DNA from: Jaapia argillacea MUCL 33604
Lineage: Eukaryota; Basidiomycota; Agaricomycetes; Jaapiales; Jaapiaceae
DNA: 64,000 nt
Assembly (NCBI GenBank): GCA_000697665.1
Contig: KL197749.1
Location: forward strand, 60,441 to 124,440
Direction: 5' to 3'
Shown: positions 7,240 through 37,660 of the stretch, piece after piece
Numbering within the stretch: position 1 is the stretch's first letter
Layout: the number at the start of each line of letters is the position of its first letter
Made by a program: the position numbers and the translations under genes
Notes under the pieces: model-generated
Told to the model about the DNA's origin: nothing
The model's input: only the letters and a program-made list of their open reading frames with translations
Database searches by the model: none

Positions 7240-8030
7240 TCCGTTCAAAGTGCTACCCTTGGTCGTTGACAGCGGAATTGGAGTCAGTTACTCAACCAAA
7301 CCTCAGAAAGCTCATATCTCATCACAATCTAGTACACCAAAGTCGGATATGTTGGCTCCTACTCGCACGCCTATTTTGCCTGTCCATCAAGACTCTCGAC
7401 TCGGAGCTCCTCCAATCCAGTTCCGCGGTTCTCAGTCACCTTCATGTTCCCCCAAAACGTGATGTCCCATCTCGTCGCACAAGGGGCAAATCAACTTTCT
7501 CCTTGAACCACCTGGCAGATCAAAACGATCCGGGCAAGTGTCCCTCTCCTTAGGGTTGATCTCCTTACACGAAACCGCATGAACGATCTTGACCAATCTA
7601 TGACTTGGATCGGCACGACATGCAGGCGACCAAACCACCGTCCTCGAACGCCCCGCATACAGCTACCCCACAACATCAGGGTGTGTAGGGGAGCCGAATC
7701 CTGGTACGTCGTGATCCTCTCTCGCACCTCCCCATCGTCTATTCTACCCATGTCGGGTCTGAGTCCAGCAATGATGCAATCCTCCAAATCGTCGGCTTTG
7801 ATCTCCCTAAATGGTACCTCTCCTACCCAGATCTCCCAAATCGTACAGGTTCTCTCATCTTGTTAGGGTTCGTATGCAGATACGTATCGAAGAGGATGGC
7901 GAGATCTATATTGGACGGTGGAGACGTTATGCGCAAACCCGTCTCCTTCGAATGAAGCTGTTGCCCAATCGCATGGTCGGACTTCGCCGTCGGAGCAGAC
8001 AAGGAAGTTGTTGGGGTGTGATGAGGCCTG
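7240..8030 (-). pseudogene. 3' half of the HGDIKPPN-type kinase gene (unit 1 remnant)
   Basis: Minus-strand reading frames match the C-terminal half of the intact kinase at 34773-36106: CSDGEVRPCDWATASFEGDG, FAHNVSTVQY, MEDCIIAGLRPDMGRIDDGE, and VKIVHAVSCKEINP near the end. The catalytic-loop HGD and everything before it are missing, and the matching segments lie in different frames, so this copy is dead. The 3' flank also matches the 3' flanks of the other two copies (shared around CTCGGAGCTCCTCCAATCCA), showing that it was duplicated as genomic DNA. The 5' end joins directly to an F-box gene fragment near 8030. Confidence 0.8.
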
Positions 8031-8200
8031 GAGCGGTTGCTGTGAAGTGTTATCGTTGGGAAAGGAGTGGCGAAGGTCAACGCTCAGCACTTACTGGGAC
8101 TGGTATGTCTTTCGAAGACATCTTCCTCGTCCTCAGGTGCCTTCCGGAGTGCCAGCGGCGGTAACAACTCAGGGCATACTGATGTGGAGGTAGAATGTGC
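8031..8200 (-). pseudogene. 5' fragment of an F-box gene fused to the kinase remnant
   Basis: Read on the plus strand, this stretch (GTTATCGTTGG..., CATCTTCCTCGTCCTC, GTGCCAGCGGCGGTAA) matches the inverted 5' end of the F-box gene of unit 2 (about 25850-25990) and, less closely, the start of unit 3 near 30000. It corresponds to the first exon and first intron only. The F-box domain itself and the rest of that gene, as well as the first half of the kinase gene, are absent. This is therefore a deletion junction joining the start of one gene of the unit to the end of the other. It does not encode a usable protein. Confidence 0.65.
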
Positions 8201-8474
8201 ACCCCGAACGCAAGGCCCGATGTCCATCTCTAACTACGAACTCCAGGCGTTTCGCCCTCATCGTACTAGTTAGGTCCTGAACCAGAGGGAATGCGAAGTC
8301 TGTAGTTGGCACCCTGCAAGCATTGCATATGTTCACAGTACCCAATGCCGGGATAAACGACCGTTATGTAATCGAATTAACCTCAACACTTGGCGCCCAA
8401 GCGCTCGACGTTGCAACGTCAACGTCCAACAGCACATCTTAACCACATTGTTCATTACTGCTCCCAATTCTCTC

Positions 8475-11147
8475 ATGAGCTCACTCACAAACCAACCTTC
8501 ACACCATCTAGCCGTAGTTGAACTCAATGGCAAGGAGCATGCGCTGCTTGGAGCATCCTTCCCAGATGGTCTCAGCCAATCGATCCAGAATAAAGCTGAG
8601 TTCCGCGATCGGCTGGCTGATGCTCTCAAGGCTGGCGAAGGCATTCATCCACTGGAAAGACTCCCTTGTGCTAACGTGGAGGCTGAGACCCGCACCACCT
8701 GTCCAAACGACGGGAAACTGTCCTGTGGCGTTTGTAAACTTGTCTCATATTGTTCAAAGGTAAGTCTTCGTTGGATGTCGTTGAATCTTTCTCAGGTTTA
8801 TCTCATTCTCAACTTTTTGCAAGACATGTCAACAGAAGCATTGGCCTGTTCACAAGAGAGGTTTGCAGCTGATCTTTTGACTTGACTTCGCCCTACCTCA
8901 AAACTTTTGGCCAGATTGCAAGGATAAGATCAGGTCCGATGACTGGAAACCAGCCTGGGTTATCGAAGGTCGTTCTCCTTCGTTTATGACCTCCGGAGAG
9001 GATTCCCTGTCCGCATTCAACCGGGTCAAAGAGGAAGAGTTTGCCGTGGGACTTCACTTGTACGATCTTTGGGTATAATTCGTATTGTTGCCATTGACCA
9101 ATGTCACTTTGTTCAGGTGGGGAGGCGTACCTGCAGTCGACGTGATCAATCTTTCCCGGAATGAGAACGATATCAACAAGAATTTCTCACTTGCTTTCGT
9201 TGGTACGCATGAGCGATTTCTTCTCCCCAAGTTCTGTTTTTTGTTCTAACGTCTGTTGTTGCTCCCTAGCCTCCGGAGATCTCAGAAACATTGTGCAAAC
9301 TATCACCGCCCTTCCTTCGAACTATGCTGGCCAGATCAAGATATTACTGAATGACAGAGAGCCACGTATCACTATCCGCAACATTGCCCTTCTATTGTTG
9401 CTCGGTACGGTGGATGACGAGAAAACTGCTGCCGAACTAGCGCTCCACTTTTGGTATTCAGTGTTCTTACCGGTAGAACATCACGTGCATTTGTCGACGG
9501 TAATGTCAGCCTTCCTCCAGCAAGTTGGGAAGGAGGGACATTTTTCTGTTCCTTTGGGTTCTCTTTCAACACTGTCCGGGAAACTTTCCCTAGATGCGTT
9601 TGATGCCGCAGCGGGGATGTTGACGGCTCAGCATCAGCTCGAAGAAGCCGTGAGCGAATACGAACGGGTTAGGTTTGTACCCTCCCTGTAACAGTACCTA
9701 CCTTCATCTCAACCTATTGTCTCAAGATTTGCACCATCGAGACAGGATCGCCATCACCGTCACTATTGCAGACTGGAACCTTCGCATCGACTTGCTTGCC
9801 TAGAATTTCGCCGTTTTGGTCTCCTTCTCCCGTTCGGAGCCTTGAATTCCCAGTTCAACACCCCTAATAATTTTCTGTTCTCACCTGGCGGGCGGTGGTT
9901 GCAAGATGACCTTGCTGATCCTCTCGAATCGTGGGAGTATGTCGGTCCTATTGTTTTCATGTTATTTAACTTCTCATCCGATTCCAGTATTGAAGCGGTC
10001 ATCAAAGCAGGTCTCGCCCATGGTGCCCAGCGTGCCGACATCTACGGCTGTCTATACTTTTTCTTGTCTGACACCCTGCGCAGCTTCGCTCGTCGTCTCC
10101 GCCAATTCCGCGTCTCGTTCCATGTTTTCAACCAGGACGCCGGGGAGCTGTCAAGTGACATCCGTGCTGATAAACTGTCGGCGTTCGGTGTGCCAAAAAC
10201 GATTCGTTTTGATCGTGTTGACGTATCCAACATCCTGGATGTTGAATACGCCGGCGTCCGGGGTGTTTTGACTGATTGGGGAACCCTCTTAAGGGCAAAC
10301 AAGACTGCCACGATTGTGGGCTACTTCATGAACTGGGCTGCCCGACAACCTGGATCATCACCAAACACAAGTCCTCCATATGTGACTGAACAGTTGATGA
10401 AACGTTTGATGCAGGACGACAGAGTAATCCGCCTTCATCTCTGTTGTTCCATTGTACTGATCGGAGCATTAGATCCCTGGACTCGGCCGCGGAAATTCCA
10501 TGAAGGCACAGAAGAGTATGTTGCGGATACTTCTTGCCTCTCAACGTCTCCACTAAACTCGCCGGACTAGTGGCTACAGACCTAATACTGGGCCAACTCT
10601 CATCTCTGACAGCCATCTACGAAAACAGCAAGGCGTTCTCGGAGTTCCTTGAGAAGCAGGGTACCGCTCAGGCCTTACAGGAGACGAAGCTCAAGCTCAA
10701 AGGGAAGCACACAATTGCCCCTCATGTGAGTGGAACATTCCTTCTGATGAGCTGTCACTCAGTCCCTTGTCAGCGGCTCTGTGCACCTCTTGATGGACAA
10801 CCAGATACTTTGCCTCATTTTCCGGATAGCGAAAGCTGGTACCTCCACGTGAGTTGGTCCGTCCCAAATACCCACGCCCTAGTTCTGACCTGCCATCCGC
10901 CCGCACCTTAGGTTCAGCTCGGAAGGGCTTTGTGGTCTGAACGTTATGTCGAGTTCTCTCGGGCTTGACCTTTCATCAAGTATGTAGGGCCACTTTCAAG
11001 TCGTGCGTCTAATGTAAACATCTCACAAACATCAGGCCTAGAGTTGAGATCTATGCTTCTGATGATAATCCTTGTAAGCCGCTGTACGATGCCTTCTCAA
11101 AACTGCCCGTCGATTCTTCACCGTCATGTAGTCACTGGGGGGCATGA
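8475..11147 (+). CDS. MYND zinc-finger protein with DUF4470-like region, copy 1
   Basis: This is a multi-exon gene starting at ATG 8475 (MSSLTNQPSHHLAVV). The first exon ends in a MYND finger: LERLPCANVEAETRTTCPND, GKLSCGVCKLVSYCSK, then, after an intron, TCQQKHWPVHKR. Downstream comes a DUF4470-type block: WGGVPAVDVINLSRNENDIN, ASGDLRNIVQTITALPSNY, IKILLNDREPRITIRN, followed by a long region reaching TKLKLKGKHTIAPH and IEIYASDDNPCKPLYDAFSK. MYND fingers bind proline-rich peptides; DUF4470 is found with MYND in fungi and in dynein-assembly proteins, and its function here is unknown. About ten short introns are needed. The frame around 10535-10600 and the last codons are uncertain. It is divergent from the kinase/F-box remnant at 7.2-8.2 kb. 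A rearranged paralogue lies at 32146-34545. Confidence 0.72.
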
Positions 11148-11938
11148 TAAGCAGTTGTCCCACAATTTCGAAATCGAATCCTGCTTGCCAAGTTTTTGTG
11201 GTGCACATATGTGTCGAATTGGTCCAGGGTGATGTATAAGGTTGTCGTCACCGCGGTGTCAACAACGACCGAGCTCTCCCCCTCTACTAACTACTTGTCG
11301 GTGGCCATATCGGCCGTCGTCCTAGTGACCCAAATCACCAGATGGAGCTCAGACGCAGCTCAACTAAGGGCTCCAGGGACTTGCAGCTTTATCTTGATCT
11401 TATACTAGGGAGCCCGTACCGCTGTTCTCCGGATCTGAATTGCCTGAAGAACTCGAGATACACTTGTCCCAGTCCCTAACTCTCCGGCATGGTCGTTTCC
11501 GCCCTCGTGTGGCCTAAAATGCTCACTTCACAGCCGGCGAATCCATATGTTGACTCTCAGCTCTCATCTCCCAACTTTCATCTCGATTCCCGATTTCACC
11601 TGACTTGGGCCGACGTCTCGAAATTCGAATTCCTATCTCACACAACTATCACTCTCGCCTCTCTACTCGCAGTAGCGTTTGTTGGATTGGAGACTCGAAT
11701 CGACTTTATCTCTTTCTAACATCAGTGGGTCGCGTTGTACGACGGGAGTGTATCATATCTTATTCTCCAAATTTACATTACATAAAGCCGACGAGACTAC
11801 TCGGCGAATTTCGCGATTGTCTCGGGGTTAGCGGCCTGAACGAGGGCAGTAAAGCTGTTGGACCACGGAAGAGGACGTCAGCAATGTGAAATGAGCTCGA
11901 CATGGCATGCATGACATACCAGCTGTGGGACGACACTA
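11148..11938. other. Intergenic region; right part is a duplicated 3' flank
   Basis: No gene is seen. The part from about 11500 matches 13500-13890 (shared words such as CTCAGCTCTCATCTCCCAAC versus CTCAACTCTCATCCCCCAAT and TTCCTATCTCACA). It is therefore the 3' flank carried along in the tandem duplication of the F-box gene. The left part (11150-11500) holds only short, Ser/Thr-rich chance frames. Confidence 0.5.
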
Positions 11939-13480
11939 CTAGTTCGACGATCCACTTGATGAATCCGAGTCTTCTGCAGATAGACTAGAGTCCACCTCCG
12001 TTGGGTCGCAGTCGTCATCCAACCGAAGGAGTAACCCTTCCTGGATGCAATCCTCCAGGCCAAGGAATGGGTCTGAAAGGACAAAACCATTGACTCGTAG
12101 AGTGACCTCTTCCAGGCGAGCCACACGACCTGAGGTGTTGGTAAGCTCCCAACGAGAGCGAATCATGGCGGAAAGGGCTTCCTCCGAACAAGAGACCGTT
12201 CCTTCGAGAGTCAATTTCTTCATATTGGGAAGGGCATACGATGCGGATAGCCCATCGTCATCCTCAGCTACTGTCAAGAAGCCCAGAAGGTGGTCCGTGA
12301 CTACCCTGTCCTGCCAGCTAAGCACCAAAATCCTAACACACTCGAGGCTGGGTATTTGTTCGATGCATTCGAGGACATCATCGTCGGATTCGAAGACGTA
12401 AAGGAATTGCAACGACTTTAGCGCGCACGAAGAACGGCCAATCAAATCGAGAAATGCAGTGTTTGTCCATGGAGTCTCGTTATTGCCAAATCCGATGCAC
12501 ATCTGGATGGAAGCCAAGTTAGGGAGAACAAGGCTGGCGAGGAACGGAGCAATGTCGAGAGATGTGGAAATGGACAGCTCCTCCAAATCGGGAAGTAGAA
12601 AGGGTTTGTGAGGTGGCTCTGTTGCATCTGTCGACGTAAATTGATGCAGGACGACCTCGCATTCGACGAGTTTGGTGCATTCAGATAGGATGTGAAGACA
12701 ATCATTGACACCTAGGCCGGTCGGCGGAATTTGGAGGGTGAGTTGCGTCAATTGGTGCCAGGGTAGTACAGCCTTAGCGACAGGAATTGGGATGCTGAAG
12801 CGAAGGGCTCGAAGGCGTGGAGCGAATGTGATGAAAGGGGGAAGATCCGACCATTCATTAGGATGGTAAAGCTCATCATATGCTCGCCCGGGCAACCCGA
12901 TATCATCTATTATCAAACTCTCCAGCAAAGGCGCAGGGTCTATGTGCTGAAGCCTACCGAAGGCTTGTGTGGGGAGATTGAGGTCGACATATTTCCATCT
13001 TGGAGTATGAGGGGCGATAATGTCGATGCAGTTGATGGAATTGTTGGTGACAACGAGGGCGTCAGACTCGCTCCACGACAGGACGTCATCCACTCGTTCA
13101 TGCCAAACGAGTCCAATGGATAGCGGTCGGTTGCCAGAGCGCTGAAGCCATGTATGCACGACCGAGACTTCGGTTTCCCATGACTTGTCGGATCCACTAG
13201 GGTACACCGTCCATCGAAACGAGCACCAGAGCTCGGGGCACGAGAGAGCGACGTGTCTCCAAGACCTGCAAAATTACAGCGGGCGGCGGCAAGTGGGCGG
13301 AGAAAGCGCGCCGGTGAGCCCGACGATCCTCCGAGTCCACTCAATAGGTTGTCAAAAAATCCAAGGGGAATCAATGGAATCCTTCGAATCTTCGAGATCA
13401 GAAGTGCAAGACTAATATCGAACCACGTATAGCGCACTTCGTGCTCGACACCCATGATAACGCCTATGTCCGTCGTTCAA
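11500..13480 (-). repeat. Tandem duplication unit, copy a
   Basis: This is the first unit of a direct tandem duplication. The 3' flank plus the F-box-family coding exon align with 13500-15500 in the same orientation. The 5' end of this unit is changed by a deletion that removes the F-box exon (see the gene at 11939). The unit length is about 2 kb. Confidence 0.75.
11939..13265 (-). pseudogene. F-box-family protein that has lost its F-box (tandem copy a)
   Basis: A single long exon reads from CRSWRHVALSCPELW through VYPSGSDKSWETEVSVVHTW to an acidic Ser/Asp-rich tail (LSAEDSDSSSGSS). It is about 65-70 percent similar by eye to the C-terminal part of the gene at 13890-15359, including the leucine-rich substrate-recognition part (LLESLIIDDIGLPG, LPDLEELSIS, LECVRILVLSW). 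Immediately upstream of the shared CAG/GTCTTGG exon start, the F-box exon (MRLPPELLSEIF...) is missing. Sequence resembling the far-upstream region of copy b is joined there instead, with an in-frame TAA just before the splice acceptor. Either the gene is dead at the 5' end or it uses a new first exon near 13300-13455 (frame beginning MGVEHEVRYTWFD). The long frame itself is open and intact. Confidence 0.7.
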
Positions 13481-13499
13481 TTTGTTTGTGAATACATCA

Positions 13500-15660
13500 C
13501 GTCGGCGCTCAACTCTCATCCCCCAATGATCATCTTGGTTCCTAGTTTCGCCTGACTAGCCTGGCTGACCGCTCGAACATCGACATTCCTACCTCACAAA
13601 CCCGTTGCTCTCGCCTGCTCACTGGCAGTAAATTTGCTTGGATTGGAGATCCAAAGTGACTTCATCTCTGTCTGTAGCATCGATTTCAATGGGTTACATA
13701 TTGCGTTGTACGGAAAGTGGATCGTCACTTATTGTCTAAGTTTAGATGGAAATGGAAAGAAGACTACTCGGGGGATTTCACAATTGTCTCGGGATTAGCG
13801 GGCAGCAGGAACTGTGGGACACAGGACGACGTCAGGAAATGTGAATGAGCTCGACATGATATGGATGACATACCAGATGTGAAACGACACTAGCTGGACG
13901 ATCGACTTGGCGAATCCGAGGCTTCTACAGATAGACTAGAGTCCACCTCAATTGGATCATAGTTGTCACCCAACCGAAGCAGTAACCCTTCCTGGATGCA
14001 ATCCTTCAAGCCAAGGAATGGGTCTGAAGGAACAAAATCTTCGATTCGGAGAGTGACTTCTTCTAGGCAGGTCACACGACCGCAGGTGCCAGTAGGGTCC
14101 CAACGAGAGCGAATCATCGCGGAAAGTGCCTCCTCCATACAATAGACCGTTCCTCGAATGGTCAAAGCCTCCATATTAGGAGCAACTTCCTCCGATACAG
14201 GTGATCCATCGTCACCCTCAACCCACTCGTCTACTGTCAGACAACCCAAAAGATAGTCCGTGATTACACGGTCCTCCCACCCAGCCTCTATATCAACACG
14301 TTCCAGGCTGGGTATTTGCTGAAAGCATTCGAGGGCGTCGCTGTCGGATTGGAAGGCGCGAGCGAATTTCAACGATTCCAGCACGCATGAAGAACGGGCA
14401 ATCAAATCAAGAAATGCACGGTTAGTCCATGGTGTGTCGATATCGCCGTTGTTCAGGTGGATGGAAGCCAACTTGGGGAGGACGAGCTTGGCGAAGAACG
14501 GAGAAATATCGACAGTTGTGTAAATGGTCAGCTCCTCCAGATCGGGAAGTATAAAAGAGTTGGGAGGTAACTCTATTGAGTCCGCCAGCGAAGGTTGATG
14601 TAGGACGACCTCGCATTCGACGAGTTTGGTGCATTGCGATAGGATGGCGAGACAAGTATTGACTCCTAGCCCAATCCGCGGATTCTCGAGAATGAGTTGT
14701 GTCAATTGGTGCCAGGGTAGTACAGCCTGAGTGACCGGAATTGGGATGATGAAGCGGAGGGCTCGAAGGCATGGAGCGATTGTGATGAAAGGAGGAAAAT
14801 CCGTCCAATCATTAGGGTAGAAAGACTCATATCCTCGCCCGGGCAACCCGATATCGTATAGTGTCAACTTCTCTAGCAAAGGTACAGGGCCTATGTGCCG
14901 GAGCCTGGCAAAGGCTTGTGTGGGGAGATTGAGGTCGATACGTTTCCATCTTGGAGCATGGGGAGCGATAATGTCGATGCAGTTGATGGAACTGTTGGTG
15001 AGGGTAAATTCATCAGACTCGCTCCACGACAGGATGTCATTCTTTCGTTCGTCCCAATCGAGTCCGATGGACAGCGGTCGACCACCAGAGCGCCGAAGCC
15101 ACTCTTGTACGACCGACACTCCGTTTTCCCATGACTTGTCGGAGCCACTAGGGTACACCGTCCATCGAAACGATGACCAGAGCGCGGGGCACGAAAGAGC
15201 GACGTGTCTCCAAGACCTGCAAATCTGTGAAACCAGAAGAGGAGCTTCCCCCCTCCTTGTGTAAAGAGGGTTCAAATCGTATGTTGGGACAGGGAGACAG
15301 CAAATAAAGATCTCCGAGAGGAGTTCCGGTGGCAGCCTCATCGCGGGGTGCAAAGCCATCGGCCGGATTTCTGCCAGAAAATTGTAGCTTCTGCCCAGAT
15401 TCAGAGGCCGTCTGTATGAGATCGACGCATTAGGTGAAACAACGAAAAACACCAACCTCGTTAAAGTACACTGGACAGTGCGGGAGAAGGCTAGAAAGTG
15501 GTAGCTTGCGAGCGGAGAAAATTGCAAGTGGTAACCGCAAAACAAAGGGGACGGAGAACACGCGCCGGTGGGCCGTGAGGTCGCCTCGACCCTGTTCCCC
15601 TTCCAGCACTCGAGGAGCGCCTGCGGGGGCAGGCACACACCTTGCGATAGTGGGAGCAAG
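13500..15660 (-). repeat. Tandem duplication unit, copy b
   Basis: This is the second unit of the tandem duplication, with a complete F-box gene plus the same type of 3' flank as unit a. Both units lie in the same direction and adjoin near 13490. Divergence is moderate, so the event is not recent. Confidence 0.75.
13890..15359 (-). CDS. F-box protein with leucine-rich substrate region (tandem copy b)
   Basis: The start is set at ATG 15359 (MALHPAMRLPPELLSEIF), where a typical agaricomycete F-box follows: LPPELLSEIFICCLPVPTYD, then LLVSQICRSWRHVALSCPAL and WSSFRW. The upstream continuation of the open frame (to 15659) lacks F-box features and is taken as 5' leader or another exon. About 430 residues after the box contain irregular leucine-rich repeats (LLEKLTLYDIGLPG, LPDLEELTIYTTVD, LPKLASIHL). 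The tail is acidic and Ser-rich (VDSSLSVEASDSPSRSSS). Proteins of this class act as SCF ubiquitin-ligase adaptors, with the F-box binding Skp1 and the LRR part binding substrate. The substrate is unknown. The truncated tandem copy lies just downstream at 11939. Confidence 0.85.
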   Translation of the reverse strand: MALHPAMRLPPELLSEIFICCLPVPTYDLNPLYTRRGEAPLLVSQICRSWRHVALSCPALWSSFRWTVYPSGSDKSWENGVSVVQEWLRRSGGRPLSIGLDWDERKNDILSWSESDEFTLTNSSINCIDIIAPHAPRWKRIDLNLPTQAFARLRHIGPVPLLEKLTLYDIGLPGRGYESFYPNDWTDFPPFITIAPCLRALRFIIPIPVTQAVLPWHQLTQLILENPRIGLGVNTCLAILSQCTKLVECEVVLHQPSLADSIELPPNSFILPDLEELTIYTTVDISPFFAKLVLPKLASIHLNNGDIDTPWTNRAFLDLIARSSCVLESLKFARAFQSDSDALECFQQIPSLERVDIEAGWEDRVITDYLLGCLTVDEWVEGDDGSPVSEEVAPNMEALTIRGTVYCMEEALSAMIRSRWDPTGTCGRVTCLEEVTLRIEDFVPSDPFLGLKDCIQEGLLLRLGDNYDPIEVDSSLSVEASDSPSRSSS

Positions 15661-22049: not shown

Positions 22050-22227
22050 AGGAGTGGTGGTGAAGAGGGATTAGGTGGTGGTGAAGCGGATTTGGCATGG
22101 GGACGGTGGTGGTTTTGGGTTATGTGTTGTGGGAGGACGAGTGAATGAAGACATCATGCATATGGGTTTTTAGTAGCCTGTTTCACAGTTGTACACATAG
22201 CTCTTCGTTTATATATTCATTACCATA

Positions 22228-22345
22228 CCTACACGATGACTGTCCTTACTATCCATCCTTGTCAACGATTTGGTAGACGAGTAAAATGTAGACATATTAT
22301 GGAGTTTTTCCGGTATTCTGTTCGCAGTTGTGCACGTGCATATGG
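22228..22345 (+). repeat. Direct repeat flanking F-box/kinase unit 2, left copy
   Basis: The sequence from ACCTACACGATGACTGTCCT onward, including TACTATCCATC and AAAATGTAGACAT, is repeated in the same orientation at 26082-26190. The left copy lies just after the Mam3 3' end. Because the two copies bracket a unit that is also found elsewhere in the window, they may be duplicated target DNA. Confidence 0.7.
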
Positions 22346-22519
22346 CGCTTTTCGTACCTCCGTCTGCGCCCATCACCACCCGGTCATGACGGCTCGGTCT
22401 CCAAGCTGCTTCTGCCCTACTCACAACTCACAACTCACAAAACCCGACCTCGGAAGACGTTGCTGGGGTTCGATTATCTGTACTAGTGGTGCTCTGCACT
22501 TCGAATATACACACCTATT

Positions 22520-23990
22520 CTACCCGTCAAGACTTGCTTTCTCCAGCTCCTCCAATCCAATCCCACAGGCTCTCACTCGCCTTTGTGTTCCACTCATCAC
22601 GCGATGTCCCACCTCGTCACAATAAGGGCATAACCCAACTTTCTCCTTGAACCAAAACGGCAAATCAAAGAGTTCCAGACTAGCTTCCCTCCTCGGGGGG
22701 TTGATCTCGTTACACGAAACTGCATGAACGATCTTGACCACTCTATGTCTTGGGATCGGCACGACATGCAACTGGCAGGCGACCAAAACATCCTCCTCGA
22801 ACACCCAGCATAAAGCTGTTTCACGTCATTAGGGTGTGTACGAGAAGCTGAATCGAGGTACTCCCTAATCCTCTCTCGCATCTCGCCATCGTCTATCCTA
22901 TCCATGTCAGGTCTGATTCCAGCAATTATATAATCCTCCAAACTCTCGGCTTTGATATCACGAAATGGTGACTCCCCAACCCAGATCTCCCAAGCGGTTA
23001 CAATTCGTACAGGTCCTCTGACCTCGTTAAGGGTTCGTACGCAGATACGTATCGTAGCCGACGATGAGATGAATACCGGACACTGGAGATATTATGCGCA
23101 AACCCATCTCCTTCGAACGCAGCTGTCGCCCAATCGCATAATCAGACTTGGCCATCGGAGCAAAGAAGGATGTTGGGTGGTTTGTGATCATCGTGTATGA
23201 TCCTTTTGGTATGTAAACTCCCCACTCATTTTATGAGCATCTCGATAACCCCTCGTCTCTCTTCCCTAGTCAACTCTAACCCCTTCCCGGGATTATCAAA
23301 ACTCCATCCTGATACCAATACTTTCTCGAGTGGCATGACGAACCCAATCATTTTCTCCTTGGGGATATAACCGTTAATCCTTTCTGGTGCTTTGAACACC
23401 CGTCCCAAGGGTTGAATGGCACATTCCGGTCCAGCGAATAACATCATCCGAAGTTCGTGTTCTAAATCTCCCTCCCAGATATATTTCACATCTTTGTCGT
23501 CGATGATATCGACGAGTGCGGTGGTGGAGCTGTGGATGGGTTTCGTTGGTGGGGACTTTGGGGCGTAATGATCCATGGGCCACGCCCCGAAAGGCGCGTC
23601 GATCGTTTTGATAGCTGTGTGCAGTTAACCTTGAATTTTGTATTGGAGATAGGTGGGTTGTTGGCGACGTCCATGGTTTAAGGATGGTCATCGGGGTGTT
23701 GTGGATGTAGAGGCCTGTGGAGGAGTTGAGGGACGATTCATTTATGGTTAACCTTTTACTCGGATGTCTTGTTGTCCAGCCCGTATTTGCTTCATTTTAT
23801 CACACCACACCATCCTATATATCGAACCACCGGTTTCTTCCTACCCTAGGTTACATCCCGGATATTGCGAGCATGTGTACATACGAACTCGAGGGTGCTT
23901 CGGTTGGGTGGGTTGAGATTGTTCGTTTGAGTCGAGATGGTTCATGAATGCTAGGGATGGCATTGCGGCGTCCCGTCGTGCCAGGATGGA
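22520..23990 (-). pseudogene. HGDIKPPN-type kinase gene, frame-broken copy (unit 2)
   Basis: Segments in at least two frames match the intact gene at 34773-36106. They are MPSLAFMNHLDSNEQ at the 5' end, then TAIKTIDAPFGAWPMDHYAP, DIIDDKDVKYIWEGDLEHEL, RMMLFAGPECAIQPLGRVF, KMIGFVMPLEKVLVSGWSFD, LTREERRGVIEMLIK, MEDYIIAGIRPDMDRIDDGE and, near the end, CPYCDEVGHRVM. The middle part carrying the catalytic loop is not in one open frame (the frame ends soon after VIEMLIK; about 23000-23225 is reduced and shifted), and the C-terminal parts lie in different frames. It is therefore a pseudogene of the kinase. It follows the F-box gene of the same unit on the same strand, about 190 bp downstream. Confidence 0.8.
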
Positions 23991-24179
23991 TGAGACAGGC
24001 TCCGAGGACAGAGAGATGTACATAATGTATGAGAATCAAGGCTCGTTTAAGTAGGCAAGCGACACCAGCATCGGAGTTAAGGTGCATATACGTAGTTTCT
24101 AACACTAGCGAAGCCAACCCAACACCCTCTCAACCCCAAAAATCCAAAATTTACGATTATACACCAACCCCAACGACCC

Positions 24180-25472
24180 CTACAAATCCCTTAAAACCAA
24201 CTTCAAACCGTCCCTTCTACAACCCTCAAGTTCCTCCCTCAAATACTGACATACCTCAGACGGGGCAACCGCCTGTACAATCTCCAATCTCGTTACCCCT
24301 TGATGATTGGCTATGGGATAGCGACGAGAGCGAACGAAGTCGATGAAAGGTTGGGGTGTGAAATGTGGTCCGAATATAATTATTTTCTTTAAATTTGGGC
24401 ACTGGGGTGGGTTCGTCGATCCAGTGGTGTGTGGTACGACCAAAGAAGCCAATACGGGATCGAAATCGAGCGTCGTGTCGTAGGCGTTAACCTGTACCGA
24501 AACGACATGGCGTAAATGTGAAAAACACTCGATGAGTTCTTGAGTCGAGATTTGTGAGAGGATCATCGTTAACGCCTCGAGTGGACAACGAGAGCGAGAG
24601 AGGAAGGAGGATAGGGAGAAGGGATCCCAGGGGGATTTGTGGTGTAGGCATTCGATGTGGAGGGTTTGGAGGTTGGGGAGGGTTAGGGAGGGGAGGAAGG
24701 GTGTTGGGTGGAAGATCCTGAGGTGGAGGTGGTGCAGGTTTATGTGTGTTAGAGTAAGGTTTGTGGTGGGGATGACGGTGGGGGTGGAGGATTGGAGATC
24801 CAAGTGACAATGGATTAGGTTTGGACATGCGCGGAGGAGGGTGACCAGGTCGAGCGAGGAGGGAGAGGGAGAGGGTTCGTCACAACAATCGATCAGAAGT
24901 TGGGTTAATTGATTCCATGGTAACTCGATTCCATCCAAAGTCTGCCGAGGTGCCCGAAGATGAACTACTCGAAGACTTGGTGCGTCCTTCAAAAATCCTA
25001 TCCCTGGCACTCCGTTCCTACCTCCCTCATGTGGGGAGGTATCCCACACCATAAATTGTCGCAGAAGTGGTACACCTCCTGTAGGGATACGGGATAGAGT
25101 TGAGCCTAAGGAGTGTAAGGGGACGTATAATTTGAGGGAACGCCAACGAGAGGCGTGCTCGACAACTTGTGAGAATATATCGGGGAGTTTGGGGGTACGT
25201 TTATCGAAATTTTGGTATAGGACTGCTGAGATCGTTAGAGGAGAATCGGCTGATTTCTCGAGGCAGTTTGTAAAGTGTGCGAAACTGCGATCGAGGTGGT
25301 CGCCGCCATCGACGACACATGGTGAAGACCATAAACGCGGGGACCCAAGAACGAGTTTCCTCCACGACGAACAAACTTGCATAAAAACGATCGGCGCATC
25401 CAAATTACTAACACATCCCGAGCCGGAATCGCAAAGCGCGAATATATCGACCAAGATTTCTGGTGGGAGCAT
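24180..25472 (-). CDS. F-box protein, unit 2 copy (5' end disrupted)
   Basis: The open frame starts at ATG 25472 (MLPPEILVDIFALCDSGSGC), giving an F-box followed by FMQVCSSWRKLVLGSPRLWS, then about 350 residues of irregular leucine-rich repeats (LRVVHLRAPRQTLDG, LPNLQTLHIECLHH). It ends in CQYLREELEGCRRDGLKLVL. It is close to the unit 3 copy at 30074-31678. In unit 3 a coiled-coil-like segment (ILRRQQKIQQLASEVNTLLS) precedes the box. Here that segment is interrupted by a 178-bp insertion at 25603-25780, so the protein may start at 25472, inside the box region, or the gene may be silent. It was probably an SCF adaptor; the target is unknown. The kinase pseudogene lies just downstream. Confidence 0.75.
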   Translation of the reverse strand: MLPPEILVDIFALCDSGSGCVSNLDAPIVFMQVCSSWRKLVLGSPRLWSSPCVVDGGDHLDRSFAHFTNCLEKSADSPLTISAVLYQNFDKRTPKLPDIFSQVVEHASRWRSLKLYVPLHSLGSTLSRIPTGGVPLLRQFMVWDTSPHEGGRNGVPGIGFLKDAPSLRVVHLRAPRQTLDGIELPWNQLTQLLIDCCDEPSPSPSSLDLVTLLRACPNLIHCHLDLQSSTPTVIPTTNLTLTHINLHHLHLRIFHPTPFLPSLTLPNLQTLHIECLHHKSPWDPFSLSSFLSRSRCPLEALTMILSQISTQELIECFSHLRHVVSVQVNAYDTTLDFDPVLASLVVPHTTGSTNPPQCPNLKKIIIFGPHFTPQPFIDFVRSRRYPIANHQGVTRLEIVQAVAPSEVCQYLREELEGCRRDGLKLVLRDL

Positions 25473-25602
25473 ACGGATTGGAGCAAGGAGAGAAGAATTC
25501 GTTTCGACGGTTTTGAGGTAGGAGGAGCGCTTGGGGAGGAGGGCGTAGTTAGTTCTGATGCTAGTTGATTGATCTTTTGTTGGCGTGATGTGACGGGTTG
25601 CT

Positions 25603-25780
25603 TGGTGAAGCAGATAGACTAAGCCTTGCTTAGTAATATACGCTCAGAAAGAAATCGGTTTCAGACCTCAGAAGAACCAGAATAAATCTCTTATTCGAGG
25701 GGAAAGGAGAGTACAAAATCGCTACGGCGAGTCTCTTATATAGGTACAGCTAGACTAGTAGAGGGACCGACAATCACCTA
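25603..25780 (-). mobile_element. 178-bp insertion resembling a solo LTR or small non-autonomous element
   Basis: Comparison with unit 3 (30180-30230) shows that this block is extra. Unit 3 reads continuously through the point where this block starts with TGGTGAAGCAG and ends with CAATCACCTA. The ends form a short imperfect inverted repeat (TGGTGA/TCACCTA). On the minus strand it has a TATATAAG box followed about 45 bp later by AATAAG and TTTATT signals, the usual layout of a small fungal LTR. A 3-bp GCT occurs at both edges. No internal coding part or second LTR is present, so it is a lone fossil. A MITE is the alternative. Confidence 0.5.
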
Positions 25781-26031
25781 CGCTCGGCTTGACGGGGTGA
25801 GGGAGGAAATTCTGAGCGGAGGAGGGTGATGAGATCTGGGGGCGGAGGGAGTGGTTGCTGTGAAGGATGTGTTATCGTTGGAAGGAGGGAACGGAGATTG
25901 TAAGAACTTACTGGGATTGAAGGTGACTGTTCGAAGTCATCTTCCTCGTCCTCGAACGTCTTGGGGCGTGCCGGTGGCGGAAACAGCAGGTATATTGGTG
26001 TACTTCGACGGCTTTGTCCGATTGAGACCAT
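25781..26031 (-). pseudogene. Detached 5' exon of the unit 2 F-box gene
   Basis: Starts at ATG 26031 (MVSIGQSRRSTPIYLLFPPP) and runs through ARPKTFEDEEDDFEQSPSIP, after which a GTAAGT donor is seen. The next exon begins at DLITLLRSEFPPSPRQAE, matching DILTLLRSGCPPSPRQAR of unit 3. The exon is then cut by the 178-bp insertion. It therefore belongs to the F-box gene at 24180-25472. If the insertion is spliced or read through, part of this could still be used. Confidence 0.6.
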
Positions 26032-26081
26032 AAATCCGAAGGAGAGAGGATGAGAATACGCAGCGTTTATACCTACTGAAT

Positions 26082-26190
26082 ACCTACACGATGACTGTCC
26101 TTACTATCCATCTTTGGCAACGAGTTGGTTGACCAATAAAATGTAGACATTACGCGGTCTTCCGTATCCTGTTTTATGGCTGTACATATT
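26082..26190 (+). repeat. Direct repeat flanking F-box/kinase unit 2, right copy
   Basis: This is the same sequence as 22228-22345 (ACCTACACGATGACTGTCCT..., AAAATGTAGACATTA) at the opposite edge of the unit, next to the ChaC 3' end. A related, more diverged motif follows at about 26190-26260 (TTTACTATCTATCTATGGCT), so the original intergenic region may already have had an internal repeat. Confidence 0.7.
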
Positions 26191-26238
26191 ATCTATTCGT
26201 CGCCATACCTGCCCTCTGGCTTTACTATCTATCTATGG

Positions 26239-29659: not shown

Positions 29660-29939
29660 GGTTTTGGGTATGTATTGAGTGAGGGAGAAAAGGACAAGTG
29701 GAGTGGGGGCAAAGAGAATGAGGTTATGATCCGAAGAAAAGTTGGGAGGAGTAGGCCTTGTGACTCGGTGGAGAAAATCTTGTCTTTTTTGGGGAGTCGC
29801 GTAGATAACACTTTTGGATTGATCGAGATAAGATAAGATCGGCGTCTGGTTTCGGCCGACTAAGTATTTGCTGCGACTTGGCTCGAGCGAATAGAGTCAG
29901 TCAGTATCCTCCACGCTGTGCAGAGTATTCTCATCCTCT

Positions 29940-31678
29940 TCGTCTTCGGATTTGTGTACCGCACTCCGACAAAGCCGTCTATCTAACCAGTATACCTGTT
30001 GCTGCCGCCGGCACTCTGGAAGGCATTCGAAGACGAGTAAGATGCCTTCGAACGGACACGCCAGTCCCAGTGAGTGCTTACGATCTTCTTCGCCTCCTTT
30101 CCAAATGAAAACACATCCCTCACAGCTACCAGACCCTCAGCCACAGGAGCAGCCCCAGATATCCTCACTCTCCTCCGCTCAGGATGTCCTCCCTCACCCC
30201 GCCAAGCCCGCCGAGCAACCCGTCATATAACAGAAGCAGCAGCCCACATCACCCACCTCGACGACCGCATCCTCCGCCGTCAACAAAAGATCCAACAACT
30301 AGCATCAGAAGTAAACACCCTCCTCTCCAAACGTTCCTCCTACCTCCAAACTGTCGAAACTAATTCCTCTCTCCTCGCTCCAATCCGTTTGCTGCCACCA
30401 GAAATCTTGGTTGATATATTCGCCCTTTGTGATTCGGGCTCCGGGTGTGTGAGTGGTTTGGACGCGCCGATCGTTTTTATGCAGGTTTGTTCGGCGTGGA
30501 GGAATCTCGTTCTTGGGTCACCGCGTTTATGGTCTTCACCATGTGTCGTCGACGGCGGCGACCACCTCGATCGCAGTTTCGCACACTTTACAGACTGTCT
30601 AGAAAAGTCCGCCGATTGCCCTCTAAACATCTCAGCAGTCCTATACCAAAATTTCGATAAACGAAACCCCAAACTCCCCGACATATTCGCACAAATGGTT
30701 AAACACGCCTCTCGTTGGCGTTCCCTCCAATTATACGTCCCCTTACACTCCTTAAACTCTTCACTATCCCGTATACCTCAAGGAGGGGTACCACTTCTGC
30801 AGCAATTTACGGTGTGGGACACTTCCCCAGACGAGGGAGGTAGAGATGGAGGAGTACCAGGGATAGGATTCTTGAAAGACGCACCTAATCTTCGAGAAGT
30901 TCATCTCCGAACGCCTAGGCAGACACTGGATGGAATCGAGTTACCATGGAACCAACTAACCCAACTCCGGATCGATTGTTGTGATGAACCCTCCCCATCT
31001 CCCTCCTCCCTCACTCTGATCACCCTCCTCCGCGCATGTCCAAACTTAATACAGTGTCACTTGGACCTCCAATCGCCCACCCCACCCACCACCACAAACC
31101 AAACACTAACCCACATAAACCTACACCACCTCCACCTAAGGATCTTCCACCCAACCATCTTCCTCCCCTCCCTAACCCTCCCCAACCTCCAAACCCTCCA
31201 CATCGAATGCCTACACCACCAACCCCCCTGGGATCCCCTCTCCCTCTCCTCCTTCCTATCCCGTTCTCGTTGTCCGTTGGAGACGTTATCGATAATGCTC
31301 TCACAAATCTCAACACACGAACTCCTCGAGTGTTTCACACATTTGGGCGATGTCGTTTCGGTACAGGTGAACACCTACGACACCACCACGTCTTTCGATC
31401 CTATTTTGGCTTCTTTGGTCGTACCACCCATCCATACCAACAACCCTATGAAACCACCCCTGTGCCCAAAGTTAAAGAAAATAAGTATATTCGGACCACA
31501 TTTCACACCCCATCCTTTCATCGACTTTGTGCACTCTCGCCGCTATCCCAATCATCAGGGTGTAGCGAGATTGGAGAGTGTGCAGGCGGTTGCTCCGTCT
31601 GAGGTATGTCAGTATTTGAGGGAGGAACTTGAAGGTTGTAAAAGGGATGGTTTGAAGTTGGTTTTAAGAGATTTGTAG
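29940..31678 (+). CDS. F-box protein, unit 3 copy
   Basis: The main exon runs to 31678. It contains TEAAAHITHLDDRILRRQQK and IQQLASEVNTLLSKRSSYLQ (a coiled-coil-like helix), then the F-box LLPPEILVDIFALCDSGSGC, FMQVCSAWRNLVLGSPRLWS, and a leucine-rich part (LREVHLRTPRQTLDG, LPNLQTLHIECLHHQ) ending CQYLREELEGCKRDGLKLVL. The exon begins after a CAG acceptor near 30150 (DILTLLRSG...). The first exon, by analogy with ATG 26031 of unit 2, would lie around 29943, but the homologous ATG reads TTGTGT here, so the start is unresolved. The length (about 500 residues) is normal for agaricomycete F-box/LRR proteins. It shares flanks with unit 2 in inverted orientation. Confidence 0.82.
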
Positions 31679-31854
31679 GGGAGGCTTAGGATAGGATGGT
31701 TTGTATGAGATGCCGTCCGGATTTTATGGCTCGATGGCGTTGGGGTTGGCTGACTCTAGAGTTAAGTACTTTTGTACTAGTAGTATTAGAAACCGCATAT
31801 ACGCACGTTCTGCCGGTGTCACTCGTCTATGCGAACTTTGATTCTTGTACACCT

Positions 31855-34650
31855 TTGCCAGTGCTCGACGCTGATCCAGAAACGTCATCGTCCTTTGCCT
31901 AAGAAAGCGATGTGCCAAAAGAAAGGAAAAACAGATAAACGCAAACAAGGAAAGACCTTCCCGTGGCGGCCAGTGTCCCTGGAGCGCGCGTCTCGTACCC
32001 ATCGTCTCAAAATATTCGTAGCACCTGTTGATGCATTGTAAAAATATCGAACTGGCGCTGCTCCATGGGTACAAAGGTGGTCTACAGACTACAAAATACA
32101 GCTAGGGATTTACAAGAGGATTGAGTGAGATATTGCTAGAATAGGTCAGAGTGGCCGAGATGTAGGCATTTGACGGTACATAACAGTGAAGAATCGACGG
32201 GCAATTGTTGAGAAGGTATCGTACAGATGCTTACAAGGATTATCAATAGAAGCATAGATCTCAATTCTTGATGTTCGTGAGACGTTTGCATTAGACGCAC
32301 AAAGTGCCTCTCCATACTTGACGGAAGGTCAAGCCCGAGAGAACTCGACGTAACGTTCAGACCACAAATACCGTCCAAGCTGAGCCTAAGGTACATACAA
32401 ATGGCAGATCAGAACTGGGGCTTGGAGATTTGGAACGGACCGACTCACGTGGAGGTACCAGCTTTCCCTATCGGGGAAACGAGGTAAAGCATCTGGCCGG
32501 CCATCAAGAGGTGCACAGAGCCGCTGAAAAGGGACTCAGTGACAGTTTATCAGAAGGGATGGTTCACTCACATGCGGGGCAATTGTGTGCTTCCCTTTGA
32601 GCTTGAGCTTCGTCTCCTGTAAAGCCTGGGTAATTCCTTGCTTCTCAAGGAACTCCATGAACGCCTGGCTGTTGTCGTAGATGGCTGTCGAACATGAAAT
32701 ATGACCCAGCACTCTAGCCACTAGTCCGGCGAGTTCAGTGGAACCGTTGGGAGCCAAGAATTACCCAGAACGCAGCATGTCAGATAGAAAAAAGTATAGA
32801 CAGCCATAGATGTCGGCACGCTGGGCACCGTGGGCAAGACCCGCTTTGATGACCGCTTCAATACTGAAATGGGATGAAAGGTGAAATAACATGAAAATAG
32901 TAGGACCGACATACTCCCATGAGTCGAGGGGATCAGCAAGGTCGTCTTGCAACCACCGCCCGTCAGGTGAGAACAGAGAATTATTAGGGGTGTTAAACTG
33001 GGAATTCAGGGCTCCGAACGGCAGAAGGAGGCCAAAACGGCGAAATTCCAGGTAAGCAAGTCGGTGTGAAGGCTCCAGTCTGCAATAGTGGCGGTGATGG
33101 CGATCCTGTCTCGACGGTGCAAATCTTGAAAGAATAGGCTCAGACGAAGGTAGATACCGAGATATGGAGGGTACAAACCTAACCCGTTCGTATTCGCTCA
33201 CGGCTTCTTGGAGCTGATGGTGAGCTGTCAACATCCCCGCTGCGACATCAAGCGCATCCGGGGGAAGTTTCCCGGACAGCGTTGAACGCGAACCCAAAGG
33301 AACAGAAAAATCACCCTCCTTCCCAATTCGCTGGAGGAAGGCCAACATTACCGTCGACAAACGCGCATGATGTTCTATCGGTATGAACACCGAATACCAA
33401 AAGTGGAGTGCCAGTTCCGCAGCAATGTTCTTGCGATCCACCGTACCGAGTAACAATAGAAGGGCGATATTGCGGATAGCAATATGCGGTTCTCTGTCAT
33501 TCAGTAATATCTTGATCTGACCATTATAGCTCGAAGGGAGGGCAGTGATAGTTTGTACAATGTTTCTGATATCTCCGGAGGCTAGGGAGCGACAAGAGAC
33601 GTTAGAGAAAAAAAAACAGGACTTTGGGAGAAGAAATCACTGATGCGTACCAACGAAAGCAAGTGAGAAATTCTTGTTGATATCGTTCTCATTCCGGGAA
33701 AGATTGATCACGTCGACTGCAGGTACCCCTCCCCACCTGAACAAAGTGGCATGGGTCAACGGTAACAAACGAACTATACCCAAAGATAATACAGGTGAAG
33801 TCCCACGGCTAATTCTACCTCTTTGGCCCGCTTGAATGCGGACAGGGGATTCAAGCCTCCGGAGGCCACGAACGAAGGAGAACGACATTCGATAACCCAG
33901 GCTGGTTTCCAGTCATCGGACCTGATCTTATCCTCGCAATCTGGCGAAAAAAGTTTGAGGTGGGGTGAAGCCTGAAGGCAAGTAACAAGATCAACTGCAA
34001 ACCTCTCGTGTGGACAGGCCAATGCTTTTGTTGACACGTCTTGCAAAAAGGCAAGAGTGAGGTAAACCTGAGCTTCAACGACATCCGATGAAACCTTACC
34101 TTTGAACAATATGAAACGAGTTTGCAAACACCGCAAGCCAGTTTTCCATCGTTTGGACAAGTGTTGTGGGTCGCAGCCTCCACGTTAGCACAAGGGAGTC
34201 TTTCCAGCGGATGAATGCCTTCGCCAGCCTTGAGAGCATCATCCAGCCGATCGAGGAACTTCGATTGGCTGAGAGTGCTCCCACTCGCCGTCCCACCACC
34301 TTCCACTCCACTACCACCTGACCTCGACGTTGTTCTCAGGAACGGGACAAGAACTTCCAGCATTTTCCATATTCGTCCTTTCCAACTACCCTCCCATTCT
34401 TCTCTCAGTTTCTCCTCTCGTTTCTTCTCAAACGACACTCTATACCACTCGTACCCTTCCCTAAATGACCGGTCGACGTGGGAAGAGAAGATCGGTTCAC
34501 CTCGGGGATTCGATGTTGAGGTACATGTTGAAAGATCGCAGTGCTTTATTCACGTGTGGTACATATCGATACAGCACAATAAAACGCAAACCTTGAATGA
34601 AATCCGATCTGCGTTGGGACTCTGGGAGTGCCACTCGGGGAATCCTGCTA
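31855..34650 (-). other. MYND-bearing segment present in unit 3 but absent from unit 2
   Basis: Unit 2 and unit 3 align after the F-box stop up to about 31850 (TAGTATTAGAAACCGCATAT versus GTGTTAGAAACTACGTATAT). They align again from about 34650-34745 (TGTGTCATCCATCCTGGC), which leads into the kinase start. The roughly 2.8 kb in between, holding the second MYND-DUF4470 gene, has no counterpart in unit 2. It was either inserted into unit 3 or deleted from unit 2. Near the left edge the sequence holds only chance frames. Confidence 0.65.
32146..34545 (-). CDS. MYND/DUF4470-like protein, copy 2 (new N-terminus, internal deletion)
   Basis: Exons match copy 1 at 8475-11147: LDDALKAGEGIHPLERLPC, NTCPNDGKLACGVCK and LVSYCSK, TCQQKHWPVHTR, DCEDKIRSDDWKPAWVIE, MLLGTVDRKNIAAELALHFW, and C-terminal KLKLKGKHTIAPH and IEIYASIDNPCKHLYDTFS, ending MPTSRPL. 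Two differences stand out. First, before LSQSKFLDRL the N-terminus is unrelated to copy 1: SFREGYEWYRVSFEKKREEK, a Trp- and charge-rich stretch open to about 34545. Second, about 450 bp of copy 1 (10083-10535) is missing, so the protein jumps from YFFLSDMLRS to the late part, with a stop right at the junction unless a GTAATT...TAG intron is used. The start is unknown. It is divergent from the adjoining kinase gene, their 5' ends about 230 bp apart. Confidence 0.65.
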
Positions 34651-34772
34651 CTTCAGAGGAGTTTCTCATCCTGTGTTTGTACATGTGGTACTTCCTCGAC
34701 TCCTGTCTCGCGAACGAGATCCTCCTGATACTTACCTCTTTACTGTGTCATCCATCCTGGCGCGGGACACCG

Positions 34773-36106
34773 CAATGCCATCCCTAGGATTCATCTCGAC
34801 CCAAACGAACAACCTCGACCACAAATTGGGTACACATGCTCGTAGCCTCGTATTCCGTAAACTAGGGTAGGAAGAAACCGGCGATTCGATACATGGCGTG
34901 GTGTGATAAAAGAACAAGATATCCAAGTAGAAGAGTTAACCATACATGAAATGATCCCCTCTAACTCTTCCAAATCCCACAACACTCCAATGACAATCCT
35001 AAAATCATGTACGTCGCCACAGCCCTCCTCTATCCAATCCAAAATTCAAGGGCCCCATACACACAGCTATCGAAACGATCGACGCGCCTTTCGGAGCGTG
35101 GCCCATGGATCGTTACGCCCCAAAGTCCCCACCCACAAAACCCACCCACAGCTCCACCACCGCACTCGTCGACATCATCGACGACAAAGCTGTGAAATAT
35201 ATCTGGGAGGGAGATTTAGAACACGAACTTCGGATGATGTTATTCGCCGGACCAGAATGCGCCGTTCAACCCTTGGGACGGGTGTTCAAAGCGCCAGAGC
35301 GGATTCAAAACGGTTATATCCCCAAGGAGAAGATGATTGGGTTCGTCATGCCACTCGAGAAAGTATTAGTATCAGGATGGAGTTCCGACAATCCCGGGAC
35401 GAGGTTAGAGTTGACTAGAGAAGAGAGACGAGAGGTTATCGAGAAGCTTATAAAGTGCGTGGAGCGATTACATGCCAAAGGGATCATACACGGTGATATC
35501 AAACCACCCAACATCCTTCTCTGCTCCGATGGCGAAATACGACTGTGCGATTGGGCGACAGCTTCGTTCGAGGGAGATGGGTTTGCGCATAACATCTCCA
35601 CCGTCCAGTATTCATCTCGTCATCGGCTTCGATACGTATCCGCGTACGAACCCTTAACGAGATCGGAGGACCTATACGAATTGGGGATAACGATTTGGGA
35701 GATCTGGGTTGGGGAGGTACCATTTCGGGAGATCAAAGCTGACGCTTTGGAGGATTACATCATTGCTGGGCTCAGACCTGACATGGATAGGATAGATGAT
35801 GGGGAGATGAGAGAGCGGATTAGGGAGTACCTGGATTCTGCTCCTCCTACACATCCTAATGATGTGGGACAGCTTTATGCTGGGTGTTCGAGGAGGGCGG
35901 TTTGGTCGCCTGGGTGTCGTGCCGATCCAAGACATAGAGTGGTCAAGGTCGTTCATGCGGTTTCGTGTAACGAGATCAACCCTGAGAGGAGGGAAGCCTG
36001 TTTGGATCCATTTAATTTGCCGGCGTGGTTCAAGGGGAAGGTTGGGATGTGTCCGTTGTGCGATGAGGTTGGACATCACGTTTTGGTGGAATATAAAGGC
36101 GAGTGA
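34773..36106 (+). CDS. Protein kinase of the HGDIKPPN type, intact copy (unit 3)
   Basis: The first exon likely begins at ATG 34773 (MPSLGFISTQTNNLDH, shared with unit 2). The main exon runs from TAIETIDAPFGAWPMDRYAP through DIIDDKAVKYIWEGDLEHEL (candidate beta-3 Lys in VKYI and alpha-C Glu), RMMLFAGPECAVQPLGRVF, MIGFVMPLEKVLVSGW, the catalytic loop IIHGDIKPPNILLCSDGEIR, LCDWATASFEGDG in place of DFG, SAYEP, and ELGITIWEIWVGEVPFREIK. A Cys-containing tail CPLCDEVGHHVLVEYKGE ends the protein. The HGD Asp and the metal-binding Asp are kept although DFG is DWA, so activity is possible but not assured. A start at 35105 (MDRYAPKSPP) is the alternative. Two broken relatives lie at 7.2-8.0 and 22.5-24.0 kb. 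Confidence 0.8.
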
Positions 36107-37660
36107 GAGCCTGTGGAATTGGATTGGAGGAGCTGGAGAAAGCAAGTCTTGATAGATATGTAGAATAGGCGTGTATTTTCGAAGTGTAGACCATCGATAT
36201 TCGAACTTGAACAACGTCCTCAGTCCGAGGTTGGACCCTGAGTTGTGAGTGGAACGAAAACAGCTGGAAGAGGTCGAGTGTGAGGAGGCCGTCGTGAACC
36301 ATGACCAAATGTTGTAGTCCTTTGGCGTGTTGACGATCTTTAATACGGTGAGCAAAACGAAGCCATGGAGGTTGACAAGAAAGCAGGTCAATGTCGGAAT
36401 CAAAGCCACGTTTTCTGTTTCCGGCATGAACTTGTCACGTTCTTCCGGCATTGATCTTCCCTCAGCCTCTTGATCTGCAAACCAGATATCTGGACCGCAA
36501 TGTCATCGTTCTAGTGCCCCCCTCGAGCAGCCAAGACGATGTCTGTTTCGTAACACCGTCTTTTGTCCTTCCCTGGTCAGAGGGCAGACCTCACATGGAT
36601 CGGTTGTTACCCACACTAGCGAAGCACATATTTCTCTTGACTACGAAAACCTGGAAGGTGATCCTCCGATAAAGGTCACTTTTTCTCTGGTCGGCTATTT
36701 GACAGGAACGACCGGCAATTGTCCATCGCCAGAACGATCAATGATAGACTTCACTTTGCCCTGTCGAAATCGCTCGCATGAACCAAGTCGAGATATCTTA
36801 TTGTTATGACGGACGAACATCCTAACGGTGAGCCGAATAACTTCGTTAGCCGATGCCTCCCTCGTGTTTGCTTATTGTGTTGGGCTGATTGGACTACTTT
36901 AAACTTTGGACAAAGTCGTCCCGACACAAGATGTCGTGGGTCAAAGTGTTTCAACGAGGACAGGCACGACAGTTCAGGAACACTGCGCTATTGTATCTTT
37001 TCTCTTGTCTGCCGTCTTTCTTGTTCCTCTGATATGTTCTGGGCGACTCCTTCGACAACTGGTTTACTATAAGGATGTAGACAGTCACTGGTTTCTCCCT
37101 CACCAAACGGCTCCCATCCACACTCTTCCGCACTCATCCTCAGGATCCCATCCTCTCCGCACATCACTAGAAATCAAATGGATTCCTTCGCTACCATCTT
37201 CACTACCTCCGCCGTCGAGGACGTCATGACCTCTACCCCCGTTGACCTTGAAAGCGGAGGAGGAGGAGGAAACTCCTACTGCATCATCGCCTGAGCAGGC
37301 CAAACCGCTCTTATTTAATCAGTGCAGTCTAATGAGCAATTATGTGAGTATCTTCAGTCCACTGCTCAACCCTTCGATTGAGGTCTAATGAAGCCTCTTC
37401 AATGATTAGATTTGAGCATCAGCATTACGACTCACCAGCACAAGCATTTGTTACCCCGCATTATTCATCGTCAAACCGGGCTGTTTGACTAGATTCTCGA
37501 CCTCTTCGTTCATTCGCATTGCATTACCATTTTATACCTTTGTTCTTCATCGACGAGACATAGTTTTGGTTACTGGCAGGGAGAAGGCAGCCGACAGAGA
37601 TTGAGACGAATAGCATTGTACTGCATATTATCGAGTACCACGTTGTAGCACCCTGGGGAA
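36107..37660. other. Unassigned region between unit 3 and the protease relic
   Basis: The first 250 bp is the 3' flank shared with the other kinase copies (for example AGCTCCTCCAATCC inverted near 36130). Beyond that, a plus-strand frame near 36450-36670 (LDRNVIVLVPPSSSQDDVCF) and a hydrophobic one near 36985-37075 (AIVSFLLSAVFLVPLICSGR) look protein-like, but no family was recognised and no splice model links them. They are left unassigned. Confidence 0.35.

Follow-up and report, generated by a model that had tools for sequence, protein, structure and literature searches.

Three related F-box and kinase loci in Jaapia argillacea: probable local duplication of a gene pair, decay and a composite insertion

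F-box genes are numerous in mushroom-forming fungi; 210 of them are reported for Flammulina filiformis (PMC7567395), and two papers connect F-box genes with fruiting-body development (PMC7567395, PMC8893723). The numbers of F-box and MYND genes vary among basidiomycetes according to a passage of a further paper (PMC4469406), and DUF4470 is marked "[+2]" in a table of gene content evolution that concerns Chondrostereum purpureum (PMC6396904). A unit that joins an F-box gene, a kinase gene and a MYND gene is not described in passages of PMC6396904, PMC8893723, PMC8708209, PMC7567395, PMC4469406 and PMC3192844, and a partial literature search by title or abstract start returned none. Such a unit had been suggested by a sequence-only reading of a 64,000-nucleotide stretch of the J. 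argillacea MUCL 33604 genome (hereafter the window; C41:60441-124440, contig KL197749.1, in an assembly of 43.7 Mb and 95 contigs), which saw F-box, MYND and kinase modules at three loci and took F-box plus kinase, with or without MYND, for a block that is copied and moved. It is proposed here, as the likely explanation, that one F-box-kinase pair was duplicated locally, that the copies then decayed, and that one of them received a composite insertion.

The three related loci were confirmed well beyond chance by self-blastn and a repeat search of the window. Unit C (29.9-36.25 kb) holds the genes in the order F-box (forward strand), MYND (reverse) and kinase (forward); unit B (22.4-26.06 kb) is its inverted counterpart, with F-box and kinase and without MYND; unit A (7.37-11.13 kb), inverted with respect to C, joins a 3' remnant of the kinase to DNA from upstream of the F-box gene and has a MYND gene close by. 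Self-blastn aligned C to B in the blocks 36250-34743 against 22426-23998 (81% identity), 31681-30278 against 24177-25585 (87%) and 30208-29925 against 25786-26059 (76%), and C to A in the blocks 36173-35509 against 7366-8010 (82%), 30117-29997 against 8044-8166 (78%), 34260-32771 against 8599-10080 (88%) and 32766-32177 against 10525-11130 (84%). The non-coding flanks are shared as had been claimed, at 69-78% identity: the DNA upstream of the kinase is 69% identical between C and B, that upstream of the F-box gene is 76% identical between C and B and 78% between C and A, and the kinase 3' flank is 74% and 78% identical, respectively. Within unit A the kinase 3' part (7366-8022) is followed by 137 nt of the F-box upstream region (8030-8166), by 432 nt that match nothing in the window, nor anything in the genome by DNA search, and by the MYND stretch (8599-11130). 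Homologous blocks, non-coding flanks included, are thus found in one region, with one decayed kinase relic on another contig, which is the pattern of a local duplication. The earlier claim that all three loci carry the same modules holds insofar as the homology is real by self-alignment, but the MYND gene takes a different position in A and C and most of the parts are broken.

The F-box gene of unit C (29925-31851 with its flanks, forward strand; PF12937, F-box-like) has an open frame at 30074-31678 encoding 534 aa, and its likely first exon, from an exon-intron structure read by eye, starts at the ATG at 30042. Its counterpart in B (24026-26064 with the shared upstream DNA, reverse strand) keeps a 487-aa open frame at 24180-25643, its 5' coding end being replaced by unmatched sequence at 25586-25785. 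Both score above the curated PF12937 cut-off of 24.3 bits (25.4 for C and 31.1 for B). What is left of the gene in A is a remnant of its upstream DNA and 5' end (8030-8166, reverse strand, by self-blastn).

The kinase gene of unit C (34743-36250, forward strand; open frame 35003-36106 plus flanks) belongs to PF00069, which matches residues 117-233 at 4.6e-18, though only from profile position 94 onward; PF07714 reaches further (47-259) and matches less strongly. The protein has the catalytic loop HGDIKPPN and reads DW at the position where the DFG motif is expected. The fungal kinase model PF17667, of the FunK1 type, scored 12.2 bits on it, below the 24.1 cut-off. A single-sequence structure prediction reached a pLDDT of 33, and a PDB sequence search gave well-known protein kinases only among the best 60 of 1223 matches. 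The copy in B (22426-23998, reverse strand) is decayed, with two stops and frame-breaking lengths in four of its five indels, and has HDD in place of the HGD of kinase C; the 3' remnant in A (7366-8022, reverse strand) likewise shows two stops, and all five of its indels break the frame.

Between C and B, dS is 0.344 (0.27-0.43) for the F-box gene and 0.325 (0.24-0.43) for the kinase, as expected of a shared duplication age, and this similarity together with the shared flanks indicates that F-box and kinase were probably duplicated together. The corresponding dN/dS values of 0.21 (0.14-0.30) and 0.23 (0.15-0.36) imply that at least one of the lineages was long under constraint. The notion of a block copied as a unit is therefore retained for F-box and kinase, for which the C-B dS and the flanks speak, and is given up for MYND, which is most likely no part of the block and in C lies in a composite stretch.

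This composite stretch (31852-34742, reverse strand; about 2.9 kb, limits approximate) is absent from B, where its counterpart is about 27 nt at 23999-24025. The spacer of B aligns to C 34778-34743 on one side and to C 31851-31658 on the other; a further match of the spacer to C 34709-34663 is weak and not significant (E 0.59). The stretch is made up of three parts of different kinship, namely the body of a MYND-DUF4470 gene that matches A, a fragment of a Spo7 gene and a repeat. The MYND body (32177-34260, reverse strand) has no 5' start of its own: it lacks about 440 nt present both in A and in a relative on contig C22, and the N-terminus of MYND A, partly common to the C22 relative, is absent from it. 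In unit A the gene (8475-11130, forward strand) has a complete-looking N-terminus from the ATG at 8475 and a stop at 9689; its homology to C begins at 8599, and the likely start codon lies in the unmatched part. The single indel in the A-C comparison of this gene falls right where the frame begins and is probably intronic. The protein matches DUF4470 at 66.8 bits (1.9e-18; cut-off 25), and its MYND finger, which an intron may split, scores 17.5 bits (cut-off 22.7) over the first half of the profile only. The A-C dS of the MYND gene, 0.278 (0.20-0.37), overlaps the C-B values of F-box and kinase and does not separate its age from theirs.

The Spo7-gene fragment (34278-34604, reverse strand) is 83% and 81% identical to C22:175669-176174 and carries an internal deletion of 170-odd nt at a short shared motif. 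Alone it scores 18.4 bits against the Spo7 model, below the 27.5 cut-off, and the longer copy at C22:175.3-176.4 kb has two frames at 48.7 and 39.2 bits. The similarity starts at base 670 of the extracted C22 piece (L068), where the first frame ends at 655 and the second Spo7 match begins at 706; it thus takes in part of the intron that these two frames define in the parent, so that the fragment must have been copied from DNA. The third part is a truncated dispersed repeat (31993-32181, strand not assigned) with at least eight other copies, at 85-91% identity on C74, C5, C6 and C7 and at 69-73% on C23, C51, C20 and C64.

The make-up of this stretch bears on whether the ancestral block comprised three genes, in which case the MYND stretch would have been present in B and later deleted there. 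Such a loss would agree with the presence of a MYND gene near A as well, and the polarity of the C-B difference is not fixed by an outgroup; yet in A the MYND gene is found past the 5' side of the F-box remnant rather than between kinase and F-box as in C, the A-C homology around MYND is limited to the gene body and stops at the borders of the Spo7 fragment and the repeat, and MYND C is without the N-terminus kept in A. We regard a loss from B as unlikely, and suppose that C gained the stretch; as judged from these comparisons, the MYND gene most likely came separately and was not part of the F-box-kinase block.

When the kinase protein was searched against its own genome, all 51 candidates were scored and 22 places were found, comprising six pieces of the window loci, one relic on contig C72 and 15 distant kinase matches at 24-44% identity. 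In this search the kinase type is confined to C41 and C72, and the idea of a unit moving through the genome finds no support, the three loci of the window and the decayed C72 relic being the only occurrences detected. The relic spans about 70.27-72.96 kb, is 37% identical and contains internal stops; it is broken up by a dispersed repeat, which occupies 2840-4468 of the extracted C72 piece (L067) and has 79-84% identical copies on C2, C4 and C7. An F-box frame lies about 1.2-1.4 kb downstream of the relic, in an order that differs from that of C. The chance of an F-box within 1.35 kb is about 8% at the density of listed F-box loci on C72 and about 1.3% at their genome-wide density. By its own account the sequence-only reading would be refuted, the pairing being merely local, if the two genes proved unlinked elsewhere, and this is what we see in part, except that the sole other trace of the kinase has this F-box nearby, which counts against a purely local pairing. 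A segment just beyond unit C (36571-37729) is 82% identical to C72:68659-69804, beside the kinase relic; it has no long frame and has 67% copies at C41:177977-178828 and 179373-180169. It was set aside as evidence of descent because it holds no clear gene and has these weaker copies on C41.

The F-box protein found at least 72 places (81 of 128 candidates scored), and the best two outside the window by E-value, among the matches listed, are 32% and 35% identical. The MYND exon found six, two in the window and four that are parts of a C22 tandem pair, and a genome search with PF14737 found eight. In the 6.7 kb examined around the C22 MYND-DUF4470 pair, neither the kinase (E up to 0.1) nor an F-box (E up to 1e-8) gave a match. 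Linkage was counted from the starts of merged loci, with gene-repeating rows and the nearby F-box row C12:1020370 left out; the lists are lower bounds, with 125 of 593 candidates scored for PF00069, 150 of 525 for PF12937, 150 of 227 for PF00646 and the above fraction for the F-box protein. Among at least 214 F-box and at least 109 kinase loci so listed, seven pairs are no more than 5 kb apart, where 5.3 would be expected (Poisson P 0.29); for a limit of 6 kb the numbers are nine and 6.4 (P 0.20). The kinase list holds only unit C's gene of the three units, and the C pair, spaced 5022 nt apart, is counted within 6 kb only. Neighbours among the listed loci being near chance, a general F-box-kinase linkage was rejected, and with it the pairing as a recurring system of this genome. 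Contig C41 is rich in F-box loci, with nine of the 214 listed in 0.66% of the genome (P 1.6e-5), a post hoc figure that includes the present units.

These counts also weigh on the reading that the F-box and kinase proteins, perhaps joined by MYND, work as a functional unit, for instance in recognition plus ubiquitin control, and that their linkage is selected. The past constraint on F-box and kinase, the two open frames in C and the F-box frame near the C72 relic are what such a unit would leave. However, both MYND copies and two of the three kinases of the window are broken, the listed neighbours are near chance, and the C22 MYND relatives have no such neighbours in the DNA examined around them; a selected unit appears very improbable. 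A recurrence of the F-box-kinase linkage in relatives would point to a functional pair.

Unit B is flanked by 71-nt direct repeats (22225-22295 and 26080-26150, both on the forward strand) that are 92% identical to each other and occur nowhere else in the genome. Such repeats could also stem from an insertion that made a long target duplication, and with the joint duplication of F-box and kinase and the relic on another contig they are what could be expected had the pair been carried by a mobile element or moved as a unit, B being the landing. Weaker similarity extends beyond them, over 22206-22322 on the left and 26064-26173 on the right, which suggests a tandem repeat, and this may predate B. 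Searched against its own genome, the DNA of unit C matched F-box, kinase and MYND copies on C41 alone: its 18 matches comprise eight on C41 (one being itself), eight of the dispersed repeat and two of the Spo7 gene. The DNA of unit A found MYND relatives on C22 at 70% identity. Within 60 nt of seven end pairs, the best terminal inverted or short direct repeats measured 7-9 nt, less than the longest seen in 40 shuffles of each pair. Pfam matches of the transposase or recombinase type were absent from the 23 scanned frames or pieces in or overlapping B and C, and from the two frames scanned in A; two weak matches in the B and C frames (DUF6653 and SieB) fall below the cut-off and are unrelated. 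A mobile element was rejected on copies, end repeats, target duplications and transposase-type Pfam matches, with the long direct repeats at B as the exception, and we hold a mobile pair to be quite improbable. A more far-reaching conjecture, to which we give hardly any credence, takes the F-box and the divergent kinase for linked partners in recognition or ubiquitin control with a fast turnover, block-copied repeatedly; the insertion of B would have made a long target duplication, and an older landing would have left the C72 relic.

Self-blastn found further local duplicates in the window. Two arms of about 1.97 kb (2069-4035 and 4984-6946) form an inverted pair at 88% identity, with partial copies at 75-77% on C4 and short ones elsewhere. 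A tandem gene pair related to the F-box gene (11539-13272 and 13490-15223) has 78% DNA identity and a dN/dS of 0.51. Two cysteine-rich genes (44298-45026, which matches Ephrin_rec_like, and 54390-55477) share short similar stretches at 69-76%.

Taken as local duplication with decay and a composite insertion, the locus may have formed as follows. The starting point would have been a head-to-tail pair of F-box and kinase genes, duplicated as a single segment two or more times, in part inverted, over about 30 kb of C41. The copies would then have diverged and decayed to different degrees, with both frames open in C, a 5'-damaged F-box gene and a dead kinase in B, and the two ends of the segment in A. 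A 5'-truncated MYND-DUF4470 gene, beside Spo7 and dispersed-repeat fragments, would have been placed separately between kinase and F-box in C, a fuller MYND copy lying near A. Composite insertions arise by break repair with template switching or by transposon gene capture; the insertion into C most likely came about through repair of a DNA break that copied pieces from several places. Each encoded protein probably works on its own: that of the F-box gene would be an SCF-type adaptor among many others, and that of the kinase gene a divergent protein kinase. The whole looks like ordinary gene-family turnover rather than a mobile module, and it suggests how two ordinary processes, local duplication followed by decay and an independent composite insertion, can leave what looks like a unit of three modules.

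The locus shares with the large F-box families of mushroom-forming fungi the abundance of the genes, at least 214 merged F-box loci here, and the local duplicates, some of them decayed; it differs in that the duplicated segment comprised a kinase gene as well. Its MYND genes resemble the DUF4470-MYND proteins of basidiomycetes in their DUF4470 domain, the MYND motif scoring below its cut-off, but both window copies are broken and one of them adjoins the Spo7-gene fragment. The kinase of C is placed in the protein kinase superfamily by its PF00069 match and its catalytic loop, and departs from typical PF00069 members in the late start of its profile match, in DW at the DFG place and in a PF17667 score below the cut-off. 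The stretch in C, finally, is like composite gene-fragment insertions in that it combines a Spo7 fragment, a MYND gene and a repeat from different loci, and differs in that no element ends were recognised; within a small space it shows parts of genes from several places of a fungal genome lying side by side.
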